Positions 11,917 to 37,785 of a stretch of DNA of 64,000 nucleotides are shown here, piece by piece; position 1 is the stretch's first letter; each line of letters begins with the position of its first letter. This DNA is from Saprospiraceae bacterium (lineage in GTDB: Bacteria; Bacteroidota; Bacteroidia; Chitinophagales; Saprospiraceae), in assembly GCA_020436835.1 (NCBI GenBank), contig JAGQWZ010000094.1, positions 1 to 64,000 on the forward strand, read 5' to 3'. The notes under the pieces were generated by a model. The model saw nothing but the letters and a program-made list of their open reading frames with translations. It did not search any database and had not been told where the DNA came from. The translations under genes were made by a program, and so were the position numbers.

Positions 11917-12163
11917 ACTGATCCAACATTAAATTGATTTCAGATAACCTAAGGGCTTTCAGTGAGTCAGTCCAGATCGGCAACATCTTATCCCGAAATG
12001 CATTACAACTGTCTTCCAGCTTCGGGCTCCATTCGCCCCGCCGGGCCAGAAATAATGAATCCGACAGCTTTAGTTCCGAACGGGTCAGAACAATACTCGG
12101 AGGCTGGTTGCAGGAGATACTGAAACTACAAATGGTCAATATTAATAAGACTCTAAGTACCAT
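11900..12163 (-). CDS. Small putative lipoprotein downstream of response regulator
   Basis: 87 residues. Signal peptide with lipobox FSISC at about residues 14-18. The mature part is short and helical and has one further cysteine (DSCNAF). It overlaps the response regulator gene by 11 bp and the next lipoprotein gene by 17 bp. Both lipoproteins share the loose pattern of a cysteine, then about 14 residues later DSL; paralogy is possible but not shown. Confidence 0.72.
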   Translation of the reverse strand: MVLRVLLILTICSFSISCNQPPSIVLTRSELKLSDSLFLARRGEWSPKLEDSCNAFRDKMLPIWTDSLKALRLSEINLMLDQYAKEK

Positions 12164-12854
12164 TCACCTTTAGTTTAAATCCAACACCATGAATGTTTTC
12201 TAACGTGATTCGTTCATCAAAGGCCAGATATTTTCTTAACCTGCTAATAAAAACATCGAGACTGCGCCCCAGGAAATAATCATCCTCACCCCAGATATTT
12301 TCCAGGATTTCACTCCGCTTACACACCGTATTGAGATGTAAAATTAAGTACTTCAATAAATCTGCCTCTTTCTGAGTGAGAAGTTTGTCCTGTTCGGGGT
12401 GTTTCAAATTCAAATTAGCCGGCTCAAAGGAAAACTGTCCCAGATGCAGAACCTGTGGAATTTCTATCTTGCTAAGATGACTCCGTTTTAAGAAAACATG
12501 GATACGGAATAAGAGTTCTTCAATACTGTAGGGTTTGATTATATAATCATCCGCACCGATTTCAAATCCTCTCAACCGATCCTCCTTCAATGATTTTGCG
12601 GTGAGGAAAAGTATAGGTACTTCCAGATTATAGGACCGGATTGCTTCTGCTATCGCAAATCCATCTGTGTGAGGTAGCATTACATCAAGAAGCGCCAGAT
12701 CAAAAGAAAGATTACGCAAATGATTCAGGACGGAATTACCTTCGGTAAAATGTGAAACAGAAAATCCATTTTGTTCAAGATTATCTCTGGTCACAAAACC
12801 GAGTGTTTCATCATCCTCTACGTAAAGAATATGTGGCTTCTCCGCATTCATCAT
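12153..12854 (-). CDS. OmpR/PhoB-family response regulator
   Basis: 233 residues. Receiver domain 7-122 with acidic pocket D14/D15, phospho-acceptor D57 (LALLDVMLP) and conserved lysine K87 (LTAKS). Winged-helix DNA-binding domain about 135-230 with LTQKEADLLKYLI and recognition helix GRSLDVFISRLRKYL. Its start codon shares one base with the stop of the histidine kinase gene (TAATG), so the two form a cognate pair. The recognition helix is almost identical to that of the membrane regulator at 36901-37785. Confidence 0.95.
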   Translation of the reverse strand: MMNAEKPHILYVEDDETLGFVTRDNLEQNGFSVSHFTEGNSVLNHLRNLSFDLALLDVMLPHTDGFAIAEAIRSYNLEVPILFLTAKSLKEDRLRGFEIGADDYIIKPYSIEELLFRIHVFLKRSHLSKIEIPQVLHLGQFSFEPANLNLKHPEQDKLLTQKEADLLKYLILHLNTVCKRSEILENIWGEDDYFLGRSLDVFISRLRKYLAFDERITLENIHGVGFKLKVNGT

Positions 12855-14128
12855 TAGGGGGTTTTTATATAAATAGTGACGGTTGTACCCACACCCAAGT
12901 CACTGTCGATCTCCATTTTCCAATTATGCATCCTTACCATCTGATGTACGTAATGCAGTCCCAATCCAAATCCCTTTGCGTTGTGGATATTGCCGGTTGG
13001 GACCCGGAAAAACTTCTGGTGCAAGCGGGCAAGATACATTTTCTCAATTCCAATTCCATTGTCTTCTATCGACATTCTAACTCCCCCATTGGCCTCGGCT
13101 ACTGCGATAGTAACCGTGGCATTTTCCTTGCGATATTTAAGCGCATTGTCTACCAGATTATAGAGAATGTTGGATAAATGATGGGGGTCAGCATGCACGG
13201 TGAATCTTCCTCCGTCATACGTGGAGGTGATGCTGGCATTTTCTTTTTCGCATCGGCTTTTCAGTTGATCAATGATGGCATCGATAACCAAACGTATGTC
13301 TATCCACTGCTTCTGCAATTGAATCTGTCCTTTTTGCATTCCGGCAATTTGAAGCACCCGCTCCACCTGATCATTTAAGCGGACCGCCTGATCATTGATA
13401 ATGCCAGCATAGCGATGCAATCGATCATCTTCACGGATCCGAGGATGATTAAGGAATACTTCCGAACTAACCCTGATACTGGACAATGGTGTTTTAAATT
13501 CATGGGTCATGTTATTAATGAAGTCTTTTTGCAGGTCGGAAAGTTTTTTCTGTTTCAGGATCTCGAAAGTGGCATAGCTAAAGAAAAGTACGGCCAGGCA
13601 GAGGATCACTGTGAAGAGAATGGGCAGCCACTGATTATTTAACATGTACCCTTTTCGGTCAGGAAAACGCACACCAAAGTAATACACGAAGTCATTTTGC
13701 ACCGGCACCTCCAGTGTTTTTGAAGGGCTGTTTATAGCTTTTTTTTCTTCCGGGCTTACATAGTTCCCGTAGACCATTTGGTCCGTATCACAATCGTAAA
13801 TTCCATACTCAAAATCTGTTAGAAGTCCGATCTGTTCAAACTCCTGAATCAAATAATACTCCAGGTTCTTTGCATCAATTGCATCACGGATGTTAACGAT
13901 AAAATAATCTTGTGATATCTGGTTGATCAGATCATAGGAGGGAAGTTGCACTTTTTTCAGTTCGGAAATCTGTTGCGCCACATTTCGGAGGGCAATGTGA
14001 ACCTTCTCTTCAAAGGCCTTTTCACTCTGACTAAAACTATTGGTCATCCAATAACCCTGAACGATAATTATTCCCACCAGAGCCAGAGCTCCCGATATGA
14101 TGACTTTCCAAATTGAACTGTTCCGCAT
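12854..14128 (-). CDS. Sensor histidine kinase
   Basis: 424 residues. Membrane helices at about 8-26 and 168-188 bracket a periplasmic sensor of about 140 residues (FEEKVHIALRNVAQQI, later YDCDTDQMVYGNY). The HisKA domain carries phospho-acceptor H209 (FINNMTHEFKTPLSSI). The HATPase domain has N box NLVDNALKYRK, DNGIGI, and GFGLGLHYVH. It phosphorylates the response regulator coded next to it. The sensor resembles that of the membrane winged-helix protein at 36901. It diverges from the DUF1573 gene; a candidate -7 box TACTTTCA (7 of 8) lies at 14160-14153. Confidence 0.95.
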   Translation of the reverse strand: MRNSSIWKVIISGALALVGIIIVQGYWMTNSFSQSEKAFEEKVHIALRNVAQQISELKKVQLPSYDLINQISQDYFIVNIRDAIDAKNLEYYLIQEFEQIGLLTDFEYGIYDCDTDQMVYGNYVSPEEKKAINSPSKTLEVPVQNDFVYYFGVRFPDRKGYMLNNQWLPILFTVILCLAVLFFSYATFEILKQKKLSDLQKDFINNMTHEFKTPLSSIRVSSEVFLNHPRIREDDRLHRYAGIINDQAVRLNDQVERVLQIAGMQKGQIQLQKQWIDIRLVIDAIIDQLKSRCEKENASITSTYDGGRFTVHADPHHLSNILYNLVDNALKYRKENATVTIAVAEANGGVRMSIEDNGIGIEKMYLARLHQKFFRVPTGNIHNAKGFGLGLHYVHQMVRMHNWKMEIDSDLGVGTTVTIYIKTP

Positions 14129-14185
14129 GCGCTTAGATCTCAGTATCTAACATGAAAGTAGGCTTGTTCTGATGGTGTAAAATAG

Positions 14186-14228
14186 TCATTAACAACTCAT
14201 TAACAATCATTTGAAACTCATTAACGGC
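14186..14228 (+). promoter_or_regulatory. Four phased direct repeats, likely response-regulator operator
   Basis: TCATTAAC starts at 14186, 14197 and 14218, with a degenerate copy TCATTTGA at 14207. The spacing is 11, 10 and 11 bp, one helical turn, as for OmpR/PhoB-type dimers binding in tandem. The last copy lies about 20 bp before an exact -7 box, where an activator would contact RNA polymerase. The kinase/regulator operon starts on the other side, so the array may control both directions. Confidence 0.6.
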
Positions 14229-14247
14229 AGATAGATTAAAGTCCAAT

Positions 14248-14255
14248 TAGGTTTG
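14248..14255 (+). promoter_or_regulatory. -7 promoter element (TAGGTTTG) for DUF1573 gene
   Basis: Exact TAnnTTTG match. Transcription would start near 14261, giving a leader of about 26 nt before the ATG at 14287. The usual -33 position is taken by the last TCATTAAC repeat, which fits an activator-dependent promoter. Confidence 0.6.
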
Positions 14256-14286
14256 TACCATCATTAATCATTAAAACATTTTAACT

Positions 14287-14673
14287 ATGCTAACCTTCAA
14301 TTCTAAACTTCTGATCAGCCTCTTATTCTCAGCATTTATTGCCTTTGCTTTCACGAGTCCAAAGCCAGTTCATTTTGATAAGATGGAACATGATTTCGGG
14401 ATCATTCCACAAGGTAACCCTCAAAAAACGATTTTCAAGTTGACCAATGATAGCGACCGACCTTTGGTGTTGAAAAAGGTCAAAGGATCTTGTGGTTGTA
14501 CCGCGACCAGTTATAGCATGGAGCCAATTTCAGCCGGTGAAACTACCGAGATCGAAGCCACATACAATGCCAAATCTACCGGGGAGTTTCGTAAAACGGT
14601 ATCCGTCTACACCAATCTGCAGGATGAACCCTATATCCTGACCATCAAAGGTACCGTTGAAGCTGCTCAGTGA
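14287..14673 (+). CDS. DUF1573 domain exported protein
   Basis: 128 residues. Signal peptide to about residue 24, then one DUF1573 immunoglobulin-like domain. It shows the family features MEHDFGIIPQGNPQKTIFKLTND, VKGSCGCTATSYS and the closing ILTIKGTV. These proteins are common in the Bacteroidota envelope and have no known biochemical activity. The gene diverges from the histidine kinase operon across a phased repeat array and has an exact -7 box, so it is a likely target of that two-component system. A strong terminator follows at 14759. Confidence 0.9.
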   Translation: MLTFNSKLLISLLFSAFIAFAFTSPKPVHFDKMEHDFGIIPQGNPQKTIFKLTNDSDRPLVLKKVKGSCGCTATSYSMEPISAGETTEIEATYNAKSTGEFRKTVSVYTNLQDEPYILTIKGTVEAAQ

Positions 14674-33796: not shown

Positions 33797-36220
33797 CTAG
33801 AGTGAATTTCTCAATTGTTCGACCGGATCGATTTTTGCCACCCATCTGCTTTGAATGCCGATCGTAAAAAACCCGATTAATAAGGTGATAATACCGGCCA
33901 GGACAAAAACCCACCAGGAGATCTCAACATGATAAGCATAGTTATTCATCCAGATATGGAGAAGATAATTGGCAAGAATGGATGCGACGGGAATCGCCAA
34001 TAAAATCACAATAATGAAATCTCTGGCAAATAGTAGGATTATATTTTGAGTTGACGCTCCTAAAACCTTGCGAATACTTACCTCCTTCAATCTTTGTTGG
34101 ATTAACAACAGTGAAAGTGCGAGTAAACCCAGGCAGCCAATGACCAGAGCAATCACGGTAAAAATCATACTGACTATCTGAAAATTCTGGTCCCAGCTAT
34201 AGAGATTGTAATAGGATTCTTTCACCTCCGTTGATTCAAAAACAGTGAGTGGAAAGAAGTCGTAAAAGGCATCTTTTACCCAATCATTTATGACTTTTAC
34301 TGATGGGTTAGACTTGTATTTGATCGAAATGTAACCATCCACCGATGCCTCAGAAATATTCGTAAAATCCATCATAATGGGTGTAATGGGATGGTGAAAG
34401 GACTGTTGGTGAAAATTCTCAGTAACTCCGATGATGACTACTTCCCAACCGTATATATTGATCGTTTTGTTCAGGATGTCTAAAGGATCTCTTAGTCCCA
34501 GGAGATCTACCACTTTGCGATTCACATAGGCATATCGATTATTATCTAGTAACGTCCTATCCAGTTTGACAATAACAGGAAGTTCATACACCGGAATAAA
34601 ATCAGGAGCAATGAAATTTCGAGAAAGACCAAAAGGAAATTTCTTTCCATCGATATTTGCCTGGCCGGTGTATTCCAGGGCATTACCTGGTATGTTTCTT
34701 GAAAATCCCACATTCGTAATAGATGGGTTCGATAATAAAAACTGCTTGAATGCGGGATAGGTCTTCTCGAACTGCTCCGGGTCAAAACCCAAAGGACTCC
34801 GGATACTTAATACGCGATCCAGATTGAACCCCGGATCTTTTTGATGGATATATTGCATCTGTTGATATCCAACGATCCCCCCCGTCATCAAGGTGAGTAT
34901 GATGGCAAATTGGATTCCAACGAGGATTAATCTGACACGTATTCCCTTTGATTTAAAATCCTGAGTTTGTAATTGTAGAGCATTTGTATGCCTCGCCGTT
35001 ATCCAGAATGCCGGAAACAAACTAAAAAGAATAGATCCGACTAAAATGACGGAGGTCAGAATGATACCCGGCTTCCACTGAAGCCAGGAAAAAATACCTT
35101 GATGCACTGGTATATTTAAATAAGGAAATAAAGATGGCTTAGCGATCAAGGCAACGATAATTCCGGTAATAATACCCAGGAAGTTCATGAAAAAAGAATG
35201 AACAAATATGGTTTGGAATATTTGTGCGGAAGTTGCACCCAGGATCTTTCTGACCGAAAGGGACGTTTCCTGACGCATGATACAGGTGCCAAATATGTTT
35301 AGGTGGTTGACCCAACTGATAATTAATATGAGAATCGAAATGGCAAAGAGAAACCAGATTCCTCTCACCGGATTTGTCCCGGCTAGATCATTGATCTCAT
35401 CAGACGAACTGAGATGGAGTTTTGCCAGCGGTCTCAGAGTAAAAGAAACGTTTTCAGCTGTTTTTTCGGCATTCGAACTTTTCTCGACGAGACTCGTAAT
35501 CAAATTGCCTTGCAGATCAGGATCAGTTGCTTTCTCTAACTTCAGGTAGGAATAGACATAAGGAATGTCCAATTCATTGTCACCGAAAACTTCAAAACCC
35601 CAATCCTGGAGGGTCCGAAAGGAGATGATCGATGAGAACTGCAGATGTGAGTTTGCGGGAGGATCTTCCACTATTCCAGCTACGGATAAGGGTTTGAAGT
35701 TCTCAAATAAAACCTCCTCGCCAATGACATTTGTGTTTCCAAATAATGCCAGGGCTTTGGATTGAGTGAGTAATATAGTATTCGGTCTCTTAAGAGCCTG
35801 CGGTGATCCAGAGGTAATTTCGAATGAAAAGAATTTGAAGAAGGAGGACTCAGCAAAGATAAATTGGTCATCACGTATTACCTGTTTTCCATGAGACAGC
35901 ACCACATCATTTGCAATCCATTGTGCTACTCGGGTGTACATTAAAATTCCTGGCAATTGCCCGGTGATGCCTGGTCCCAGTCCAGCCGGGCTGAGAGCAT
36001 TTGTTTCCATTGCATCACCCTCCCTTTGCAGGGAGGAGACACGGTACAGTTGGTCCAGGTCATGATGGAATCTGTCAAAGCTATAATGCCAATTGACATA
36101 ATTACAAAGGAGCAAACTGGCCGCAACTCCTATCACAATACCGATCAGCTGGAGAATACTCAATTGCTTTTGTCTGGTGCTTTGCCTCCAGGCCTGCAGT
36201 ATCTGTTTTTTAAATTGCAT
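33797..36220 (-). CDS. ABC transporter permease, FtsX/MacB type
   Basis: 807 residues with the doubled MacB layout: helix 1 (about 22-40), a periplasmic domain, three helices at about 285-410, a short link helix near 430, a second periplasmic domain, and three C-terminal helices (about 680-795). The FtsX signature RQETSLSVRKILGATSAQI is repeated as LKEVSIRKVLGASTQNI. Such permeases work with a separate ATPase to move lipoproteins or peptides or to transmit force. No ATPase gene lies nearby, so it is an orphan here, as is common in Bacteroidota. Confidence 0.9.
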   Translation of the reverse strand: MQFKKQILQAWRQSTRQKQLSILQLIGIVIGVAASLLLCNYVNWHYSFDRFHHDLDQLYRVSSLQREGDAMETNALSPAGLGPGITGQLPGILMYTRVAQWIANDVVLSHGKQVIRDDQFIFAESSFFKFFSFEITSGSPQALKRPNTILLTQSKALALFGNTNVIGEEVLFENFKPLSVAGIVEDPPANSHLQFSSIISFRTLQDWGFEVFGDNELDIPYVYSYLKLEKATDPDLQGNLITSLVEKSSNAEKTAENVSFTLRPLAKLHLSSSDEINDLAGTNPVRGIWFLFAISILILIISWVNHLNIFGTCIMRQETSLSVRKILGATSAQIFQTIFVHSFFMNFLGIITGIIVALIAKPSLFPYLNIPVHQGIFSWLQWKPGIILTSVILVGSILFSLFPAFWITARHTNALQLQTQDFKSKGIRVRLILVGIQFAIILTLMTGGIVGYQQMQYIHQKDPGFNLDRVLSIRSPLGFDPEQFEKTYPAFKQFLLSNPSITNVGFSRNIPGNALEYTGQANIDGKKFPFGLSRNFIAPDFIPVYELPVIVKLDRTLLDNNRYAYVNRKVVDLLGLRDPLDILNKTINIYGWEVVIIGVTENFHQQSFHHPITPIMMDFTNISEASVDGYISIKYKSNPSVKVINDWVKDAFYDFFPLTVFESTEVKESYYNLYSWDQNFQIVSMIFTVIALVIGCLGLLALSLLLIQQRLKEVSIRKVLGASTQNIILLFARDFIIVILLAIPVASILANYLLHIWMNNYAYHVEISWWVFVLAGIITLLIGFFTIGIQSRWVAKIDPVEQLRNSL

Positions 36221-36345: not shown

Positions 36346-36768
36346 TCATTGAGCATAATGAACAATTATTTCATTGTGTGGAAGTGTATATCCTTCATCT
36401 ACCAGCATGACCAGGATGGAGTCTCCAGCATGGCATTTGGACAGGACGTCTTCTACCGGTACCTCTTCGAATGTGTTGTCGGAAAAGGAAACTAAGGTAT
36501 TGCTTGCACCACGTCGGATCGCAAGTCTAAACTTGATTTGTCCGGTCGGTTGACACTGCTCTGAAGATAGAATAACTGTTTGTACGGTGAAAGACCCCGT
36601 TACATTGTAGTCAATGATACACTGGCCATACTCCGAATATTCATCTACGACCAGATGATCGTCTAAGAAGACAGCGACACAGCTGGAAGATGTTTTCTGG
36701 CAGAAAACAATGGAGGAGAAGACCAGGAAACTGCAGAAGAGGATTGCTTTTCGAATTTTAGCAGACAT
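36346..36768 (-). CDS. Small exported protein of unknown function
   Basis: 140 residues. Signal peptide to about residue 23 (SSIVFCQ). The mature protein is beta-rich with four cysteines (SSCVAVFL, GQCIIDYN, EQCQPTG, SKCHAG), which may form disulfides. No family recognised. It diverges from the membrane regulator gene. Its promoter (exact TACTTTTG at 36801-36794) lies next to phased repeats, so it is the most likely target of that regulator. Confidence 0.75.
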   Translation of the reverse strand: MSAKIRKAILFCSFLVFSSIVFCQKTSSSCVAVFLDDHLVVDEYSEYGQCIIDYNVTGSFTVQTVILSSEQCQPTGQIKFRLAIRRGASNTLVSFSDNTFEEVPVEDVLSKCHAGDSILVMLVDEGYTLPHNEIIVHYAQ

Positions 36769-36793: not shown

Positions 36794-36801
36794 CAAAAGT
36801 A
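36794..36801 (-). promoter_or_regulatory. -7 promoter element (TACTTTTG) for exported protein gene
   Basis: Exact TAnnTTTG match read on the minus strand. Transcription would start near 36788, about 20 nt before the ATG at 36768. Confidence 0.6.
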
Positions 36802-36832: not shown

Positions 36833-36861
36833 GGTAAAAGAATGTAAATGATATGTAAATA
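36833..36861. promoter_or_regulatory. Phased direct repeats between regulator and exported protein genes
   Basis: GTAAA occurs at 36834, 36844 and 36855, spaced 10 and 11 bp. Read on the minus strand the units are (T/C)nTTTAC; the middle one is TCATTTAC. This resembles the TCATTAAC units at 14186-14228. A weaker copy (GGTAAC) lies at 36818. The array is upstream of the minus-strand -7 box at 36801 and between the two divergent genes. Confidence 0.5.
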
Positions 36862-36887: not shown

Positions 36888-36895
36888 TATTTTTG
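36888..36895 (+). promoter_or_regulatory. -7 promoter element (TATTTTTG) for membrane regulator gene
   Basis: Exact consensus match that ends 5 bp before the ATG at 36901. The transcript would start at about the first base of that codon, so this mRNA may have no leader. An earlier ATG at 36880 lies upstream of this box and is therefore unlikely to be the start. Confidence 0.45.
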
Positions 36896-36900
36896 ACAAT

Positions 36901-37785
36901 ATGCACAACTCTATATTCTCATTCTTTCTTATCCTGGCTTTTGGTTTTGCGTTGGAGATCAATGCGGATTCCAGCTGGACCTCTCATCAGGGTGAAGATT
37001 ATTTTTTTGAACGGGTGAACCTTGCTTTGAGGAAAGCGGCAGATCAATTATTAAATCTGGCAGGTGATTCCACGAGTATGATCCCACCGGTCAGACAAAT
37101 CATGCCGGCATCTTTCAGCTTAAGACTGGAGGGGAATATAGCATATGACAGTCTGCCTGACATCCTGGAAAATGCCTTGAGTACACATGGGATCAACATG
37201 CACTATTTGGTATCAATCAAGGATTGCGACGATGGGCAAGTCTTGTTGGGTTATAGTAGAAACGATCTGTATTCCAGTGTTCCCTGTGTGGGTCGTGATA
37301 GGTCAGAAAGGTGTTTTCAGCTTGACCTGATCTTTCCCTCTTCATTGGACCAGGGAAAGACGTCATCTTACGTGTACTATCTCGCATTAATCGGTTGTTT
37401 CTTGATCGGACTGATCTTTTATCAGAAAGTCAGGATTAACCCGGAAGAAAGAAGATCATCTCCAGAAAATAAAATCGATGGTGTTTGTTTTGGTAACACC
37501 ATTTTCGATTCTTCGAACCAGTTGGTAGTGGTGCATGGAACGGAAAAAACCCTCACGTTCAGAGAGTCTAAGTTGCTTAGCTATTTTTTGAAACATCAAA
37601 ATCAGTTATTGGAGCGAGACCAGATTTTGTCAGAAGTGTGGGGTGATGAGGGAATTTTGGTTGGACGAAGTCTCGACGTATTTGTGTCGCGATTGCGTAA
37701 ATTATTAAGATCAGACAATTCGGTGAAGATTACGAATGTACATGGTGTGGGCTACCGTTTTGAGGTAGGTAGAGATATGGTATAA
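36901..37785 (+). CDS. Membrane-anchored winged-helix regulator with periplasmic sensor
   Basis: 294 residues. N-terminal signal or anchor helix (about 5-18), a periplasmic domain (about 20-155), a membrane helix (about 158-175) and a cytoplasmic OmpR-type winged helix (about 198-290; LTFRESKLLSYFL, recognition helix GRSLDVFVSRLRKLL, VHGVGYRFEV). There is no receiver or kinase domain, so it is a one-component regulator like ToxR or CadC but with the opposite domain order. The periplasmic part resembles that of the histidine kinase at 12854-14128: FFERVNLALRKAADQL against FEEKVHIALRNVAQQI, and KDCDDGQVLLG against YDCDTDQMVYG. Three cysteines (109, 129, 138) may report redox state or form disulfides. 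Confidence 0.85.
   Translation: MHNSIFSFFLILAFGFALEINADSSWTSHQGEDYFFERVNLALRKAADQLLNLAGDSTSMIPPVRQIMPASFSLRLEGNIAYDSLPDILENALSTHGINMHYLVSIKDCDDGQVLLGYSRNDLYSSVPCVGRDRSERCFQLDLIFPSSLDQGKTSSYVYYLALIGCFLIGLIFYQKVRINPEERRSSPENKIDGVCFGNTIFDSSNQLVVVHGTEKTLTFRESKLLSYFLKHQNQLLERDQILSEVWGDEGILVGRSLDVFVSRLRKLLRSDNSVKITNVHGVGYRFEVGRDMV

Follow-up and report, generated by a model that had tools for sequence, protein, structure and literature searches.

A membrane-anchored regulator family of the Bacteroidia with a kinase-type sensor, a predicted three-repeat operator and secreted partner genes

The window, by which we mean the whole stretch of 64,000 nucleotides analysed here, carries on its forward strand a gene for a membrane-anchored one-component regulator of 294 amino acids (36901..37785). 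A gene for a secreted partner of 140 amino acids lies on the reverse strand (36346..36768), divergent from the regulator. It is followed downstream on the same strand by a gene for an FtsX/ADOP-like ABC permease (33797..36220; NCBIfam ADOP at 150 bits, below the cutoff of 622). Two more reverse-strand genes of the window stand outside this system and are used here as comparison proteins. These encode an RprX-like histidine kinase with a homologous sensor (12854..14128; Pfam HisKA and HATPase_c) and an RprY-like response regulator with a related winged helix (12153..12854; NCBIfam RprY at 224.7 bits, below the cutoff of 370).

The regulator was characterized from its ORF translation, Pfam, an AF2 model and 122 family members, and consists of a periplasmic sensor, a membrane segment (TM2) and a winged-helix domain (wHTH). 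PF00486 (Trans_reg_C) is its sole Pfam domain (residues 214-287, E 6.7e-19). The match falls within an OmpR/PhoB-type winged helix that, with structural matches taken into account, covers residues ~194-290 (37480..37770). Response_reg, HisKA and HATPase gave zero Pfam matches in the protein, even at E<=1. Hydropathy shows two hydrophobic segments here and in most homologues, starting at about residues 4 and 155. The first is a signal peptide or TM1 (residues ~1-23, 36901..36969) and the second is TM2 (residues ~155-178, 37363..37434). Between them is a periplasmic domain about 120 amino acids long (residues 34-153, 37000..37359). In the AF2 model (mean pLDDT 82.6), residues 3-53 form the TM1 helix and residues 150-178 the TM2 helix, with an alpha/beta core in the periplasm between them. 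Residues 180-190 are a poorly ordered linker, and the wHTH begins near residue 195. Pfam, hydropathy and AF2 thus agree on the architecture that a preliminary description had proposed, in which a periplasmic domain between two membrane segments is joined to a wHTH without receiver, HisKA or ATPase domains. The inferred topology puts the N-terminus, with the sensor, on the periplasmic side and the C-terminal wHTH in the cytoplasm, and signalling without phosphorylation would follow from the domain content. A structure search with the full model returned mostly matches to the wHTH, the top ones being the DNA-binding domains of SaeR, YycF and CadC (Z ~14-15); the ToxR DNA-binding domain was also among the matches.

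The periplasmic domain is a homologue of RprX-type kinase sensors. BLASTP aligned residues 2-117 of the regulator to residues 3-121 of the window's kinase at 24% identity (E 8e-6), and profile-profile comparison with hhalign covered 118 columns at a probability of 97.2% (E 4.6e-11). A profile of the fused sensors picked out ORFs of ~430 amino acids in other genomes, with E-values down to 3e-9, and these were kinases where examined. The reverse query, using the kinase sensor, found fused proteins in two other genomes. Because BLASTP, hhalign and searches in both directions agree, we take the resemblance to be homology and not chance. Over 94 amino acids, the wHTH shares 39% identity with its counterpart in the response regulator (E 7e-22), and among NCBIfam models RprY matches it best. 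Both similarities had been claimed in the preliminary description, which had suggested a profile comparison for the first, and both are borne out.

These comparisons support an old fusion event as the regulator's origin, in which the sensor of an RprX-type kinase was joined to an RprY-type DNA-binding domain. In a weakly resolved tree of 92 wHTHs (112 columns), the fused ones form about two clades beside the RprY-type regulators, though a single clade was not rejected (p-AU 0.25). We also asked whether the fusion arose from the kinase and response regulator of this window and saw no sign of it, as the fused wHTHs cluster apart from the RprY-type ones. This placement indicates an old fusion. 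The earlier proposal of a fused two-component system therefore survives in refined form: RprX/RprY-type parts are the most economical origin, and the event is old and family-wide.

The preliminary description had also proposed a survey of this domain order across Bacteroidota. Tallied by reading output lists, the fused regulator is present in 93 of 298 genomes of the same family (E below 1e-15) and in 25 of 395 genomes sampled from the phylum (E below 1e-20), the latter all in one class. By these searches, the family is spread over the class Bacteroidia, and the fusion is old and widespread. For gene neighbourhoods we sampled 122 loci with one regulator each. Neighbourhood ORFs came from a simple ORF caller, and some partner starts or ends may be wrong. 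The sampled loci share ancestry, so that counts and p-values given below are not independent and significance is overstated.

Upstream regions of the regulators contain regularly spaced direct repeats. Identical 6-mers recur at spacings of 10, 11 and 21 in 60, 63 and 64 of 109 regulator upstream regions, compared to ~6, 6 and 11 loci for control upstream regions when their counts are scaled to 109. The family motif is TGTAAA three times over, mostly at offsets 0, 10 and 21. In the window, this family-wide motif takes the form GGTAAA-N4-TGTAAA-N5-TGTAAA, with three direct repeats at 10/11-bp spacing (36833..36859, forward strand). A position weight matrix for this operator scored above the 99% level of shuffled sequence in 97 of 109 loci, the same loci on which it was trained. 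The operator is absent from 12 of the 109 regulator upstream regions, and in several of these cases it stands before a partner gene instead.

Candidate promoters flank the operator on both sides, their -7 boxes at fixed distances and in phase with it. A Bacteroidota -7 box (TAnnTTTG) lies downstream of the operator on the regulator side in 52 of 83 loci (2.1 expected), in most of these 25-27 or ~36 bp from the operator. On the partner side, a box was present anywhere in 31 of the 83 (4.6 expected), and in 28 of 83 it was 31-33 bp from the operator. Both family-wide boxes can be read in the window: TATTTTTG in the regulator promoter (36888..36895, forward strand), ending 5 bp before the ATG, and TACTTTTG in the divergent partner promoter (36794..36801, reverse strand), 31 bp from the operator. 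In 54 loci, 37-39 bp separate the end of the last repeat from the regulator ATG; a second group of loci has 47-49 bp, about one helical turn more. Relative to the transcription start, the flavobacterial -7 box is described as spanning -12 to -5 (PMC9723704). In the consensus of 52 loci with the 37-39-bp spacing, the same box letters fall at these very positions (-12 to -5) counted from the ATG, and for this reason the regulator mRNA is probably leaderless.

With these boxes, the operator occupies about -38 to -65 of the regulator promoter and -44 to -71 of the partner promoter, and a site at about -38 to -71 points to activation as the likely direction of control. The opposite direction would have the regulator on its three repeats shut both divergent promoters until released by a periplasmic signal. 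An operator standing between two divergent promoters, as here, is common for autorepressors as well, and to that extent the arrangement suits repression. The geometry, however, is that of the usual place for OmpR-type activators, and we regard repression as unlikely, though a serious contender. The conserved operator, promoter geometry and target families are well supported computationally; that the regulator binds the TGTAAA repeats is what we infer from them.

The gene on the regulator's upstream side is divergent in 92 of the 122 loci and co-directional in 27. Neighbours group into families that recur between loci, and almost all of them have an N-terminus resembling a signal sequence; a secreted-looking partner adjoins the regulator in most loci. 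Partner families include propellers (Reg_prop, BNR), TonB_C-like, YceI, Peptidase_S41 and Beta-lactamase proteins, and several without a Pfam match. The window's partner belongs to a recurrent family (c3) that fills this place in ~20 of 122 loci and whose members often end in -Gly-Cys. Its AF2 model is a beta sandwich (pLDDT 90.4). The protein had no Pfam match above cutoff. Against the PDB, its model matched nothing with an E-value under 0.038, a result that is not evidence of a new fold. The permease gene downstream is possibly co-regulated with the partner. Similar permeases are found near the regulator in four other loci (L146, L150, L152, L154).

Allowing at most two mismatches, we found 116 operator sites in 1.23 Mb of loci. 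Ninety-three are upstream of a regulator, eighteen upstream of another gene and five inside ORFs. In all eighteen of the non-regulator cases, the downstream gene belongs to family c1, c3 or c9 or, once, encodes a 444-amino-acid protein ending in Cys, and the operator has the opposite polarity. As the motif was learned from regulator upstream regions, these eighteen sites are a semi-independent test only. The exact pattern occurs twice in the window's 7.28-Mb genome, once at this locus and once 57 bp upstream of a gene for a secreted Reg_prop propeller, which belongs to a partner family. This second site is in L254 6463-6935 (G000:C676), where the propeller gene runs off the contig and its C-terminus is missing. 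Two further operator-like sites have one mismatch: one (L282, G000:C340:1282) is 61 bp upstream of a gene for a secreted-looking 435-amino-acid protein, and the other (L270, G000:C57:8697) has no gene close by.

In other genomes, sites in trans lie upstream of TonB_C-like (ending GLEGC), BNR (SGGC), beta-lactamase-like, S41-like and c25 (KGGC) genes, with families assigned by eye from the sequences. Copies of family c25 also occur at a distance from the regulator gene in four regulator-bearing genomes (G399, G457, G565 and G573); TGTAAA-type sites stand upstream of those in G399 and G457 and are weaker elsewhere. From the sites and gene families together, the regulator would appear to control a small regulon of secreted proteins in cis and in trans.

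Many of the partners share a C-terminal cysteine. Among complete cases, the upstream-side neighbour ends in Cys in 38 of 88 divergent and 9 of 24 co-directional genes. The combined rate (47/112) compares with 3/675 for other ORFs in these related loci (P = 1e-40). Of 57 Cys tails on genes no more than two places from the regulator, 48 read -Gly-Cys, and the tails are found on unrelated partner families. They are encoded with every possible Gly codon (four), Cys codon (two) and stop (three), and this variation points to selection on the protein. A gene-overlap effect is likewise rejected by the variable codons and stops, and by partner 3′ ends that mostly point away from the regulator. Nor are terminal cysteines a general trait of genes in these loci, given their rarity among other ORFs and their absence from divergent neighbours of kinases (0/21). 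The window's own partner has no Cys tail (it ends in HYAQ), as is true of about half of the adjacent partners, and the evidence on tails thus rests on relatives. Strict dependence of -Gly-Cys tails on the regulator was rejected by one exception: G465 carries a c25 homologue with such a tail (L294, G465:C14:67284-67823), and no fused regulator was detected in its genome. At L146, the regulator is preceded by a cluster of several consecutive partner-family genes, two of which encode a -Gly-Cys end.

The sensor has conserved cysteines of its own. Cys129 (37285..37287, forward strand, as for the codons below), in the motif P-C-x-G-R, and Arg132 (37294..37296) are each identical in 122 of 122 family members. 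Cys109 (37225..37227) is Cys in 113 of 122 and Cys138 (37312..37314) in 112 of 122. The two are both kept in 112 members, both gone in nine and discordant in one (P = 8e-13, uncorrected for shared ancestry), so that they were lost together in nine of ten exceptions. Given this co-loss, the simplest reading is a Cys109-Cys138 disulfide with Cys129 probably an unpaired periplasmic cysteine. In the AF2 model, Cys129 falls within a low-pLDDT loop (residues 124-133). An equivalent of Cys109 is present in 30 of 30 kinase sensors; for Cys129 and Cys138 there is no matching column in the 30 aligned kinase sensors. Across the 122 loci, the terminal Cys of the partner does not track the presence of Cys109 and Cys138.

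We propose that the regulator, a one-component protein bound to the membrane, activates its own gene and the genes of secreted partners, that it responds to thiol exchange at Cys129 and that in many relatives the partner tails provide feedback. We put the probability of this reading at roughly 60 per cent; the tail-less partners, the exception in G465, the failure of tails to track Cys109 and Cys138 and the 12 upstream regions without an operator count against it. The regulator would bind the three TGTAAA repeats with one wHTH per repeat and activate both its own promoter, which probably gives a leaderless mRNA, and the divergent promoter of the secreted partner; at other loci and in trans it would control further secreted proteins. 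A structural disulfide between Cys109 and Cys138 would leave Cys129 free in a flexible loop beside Arg132, and the signal would most likely be thiol exchange at Cys129. In many relatives, the thiol could come from the partner's C-terminal Cys, which would make the signal a feedback from the regulon's own secreted products. In the window's locus, the partner, which has no tail, may use its internal cysteines, or two Cys129 residues may pair in a dimer. As a guess that fits its invariance and nothing more, Arg132 could hold the C-terminal carboxylate of the partner tail. A broader idea is that unrelated secreted folds in Bacteroidota share a short C-terminal -Gly-Cys tag, read in the periplasm by the invariant Cys/Arg pair of a dedicated membrane factor controlling their genes. 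We advance this only tentatively and would place it somewhat below even odds.

One competing explanation is a redox or dimerization switch, in which an intermolecular Cys129-Cys129 disulfide sets the DNA-binding state, with the partners as plain output whose tails serve secretion, anchoring or some function of their own. A similar role has been proposed for the cysteines of ToxR-type regulators, and the available text of two reports describes the periplasmic cysteines of ToxR as redox-active (PMC6242745, PMC8359183). Such a switch accommodates the invariance of Cys129 even where the partner lacks a terminal Cys, as in the window. It would need a separate cause for Cys tails on unrelated families next to the regulator and on none of the 21 kinase neighbours, however, and it leaves the invariant Arg132 unexplained. 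We think this switch doubtful, on a par with repression.

A slightly less probable alternative makes the secreted partner (propeller, TonB_C-like, YceI-like or beta sandwich) an exchangeable ligand-binding unit that docks on the small sensor domain, tethered by its Cys tail, in the manner of a co-component system. The frequency of Reg_prop and BNR propellers among partners and the adjacency of the partner gene in most loci fit this proposal, and a partner combined with a membrane regulator is the logic described for ToxRS and VtrAC in the part of PMC9214523 available to us. Several partners are enzyme-like (Peptidase_S41 and Beta-lactamase domains), however, and in some genomes several partner genes lie in trans; moreover, operators on partner genes suit output at least as well as input. 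Release of the wHTH as a soluble factor by regulated proteolysis is very improbable: the poorly ordered linker would allow for it, but the neighbourhoods hold no recurrent adjacent protease gene save occasional S41-domain partners, and nothing in the regulator sequence demands it. Since several of these explanations could hold together, their probabilities overlap with that of the thiol-exchange reading.

The closest described case, matched by description, is Rsp of Neisseria gonorrhoeae, which in the text available to us has the receptor part of PilS at the N-terminus and the PilR DNA-binding domain at the C-terminus (PMC10269533). Our regulator likewise joins a kinase-derived membrane sensor to a response-regulator-type DNA-binding domain, and the order with a C-terminal DNA-binding domain on a kinase-type sensor thus already has a precedent. 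Rsp, as described there, is one chimera in one species, built from PilS/PilR parts, whereas the family described here has RprX/RprY-type parts, extends over the class Bacteroidia and has a conserved operator and regulon. The same survey reports that Bacteroidota are rich in transmembrane transcription regulators (TTRs). The regulator combines a DNA-binding domain with at least one predicted transmembrane helix in one protein and counts as one of them, but an orthologous family of its kind is not described in the passages of the survey available to us. Those passages stress hybrid TTRs, which keep kinase or receiver domains; the regulator has neither, and so cannot be classed with hybrid TTRs or hybrid two-component systems. 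Without an N-terminal receiver it is no OmpR/PhoB response regulator, and with homology to RprX-type histidine kinases in the sensor part alone it is not one of these either.

ToxR and CadC are also membrane-bound, with an OmpR-type wHTH, a periplasmic sensor and cysteines. Their DNA-binding domain is N-terminal, in contrast to the regulator, in which it follows both hydrophobic segments near the end of the protein. The preliminary description had drawn this comparison with the same reservation about domain order, and the order found here confirms the contrast. Assignment to the ToxR/CadC type is accordingly rejected. Co-component systems such as ToxR/ToxS and VtrA/VtrC, as far as the accessible text of PMC9214523 describes them, pair a membrane transcription factor with an adjacent gene for a periplasmic partner. 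Judged from genes alone, most of the 122 loci have this arrangement. The regulator's partners differ in that they come from many unrelated families, are mostly divergent, carry the operator and often end in Cys. For the reading of Cys tails by Cys129 that we propose, a comparable logic is that of AlgW, a periplasmic sensor described in the portion of PMC8545111 available to us as reading the C-terminal tails of outer-membrane proteins.

To our knowledge, DNA-binding regulators held in the membrane are common, and few have known targets. Here an operator, promoters and a small regulon are predicted from sequence alone for a regulator family found across the Bacteroidia, and this makes the mechanism directly testable in one laboratory species. 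We found no descriptions of the operator or of the Cys tails in the open-access papers searched. The preliminary description did not include the operator, the divergent secreted partner, the Cys tails on relatives' partners or the invariant Cys129 and Arg132. If Cys129 does read C-terminal Cys tails, it would give the cell a new way to sense its own secreted proteins; such a tail code would be new in kind and would amount to unrecognized feedback wiring in a large bacterial group.

RprX/RprY of Bacteroidota has the homologous periplasmic sensor and the closest wHTH, but it retains the kinase and receiver, the 30 aligned sensors of its kinases lack the Cys129 and Cys138 columns, and its upstream repeats are different. 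An operator shared between the two systems was rejected, as TGTAAA pairs occur in 0 of 30 kinase upstream regions. Direct repeats with 11-bp spacing are present upstream of the kinase in 19 of 30 relatives. In the window, TCATTAAC repeats with ~11-bp spacing lie at 14129-14286, between the kinase and a divergent gene at 14287, and probably represent an RprY-type operator distinct from TGTAAA.
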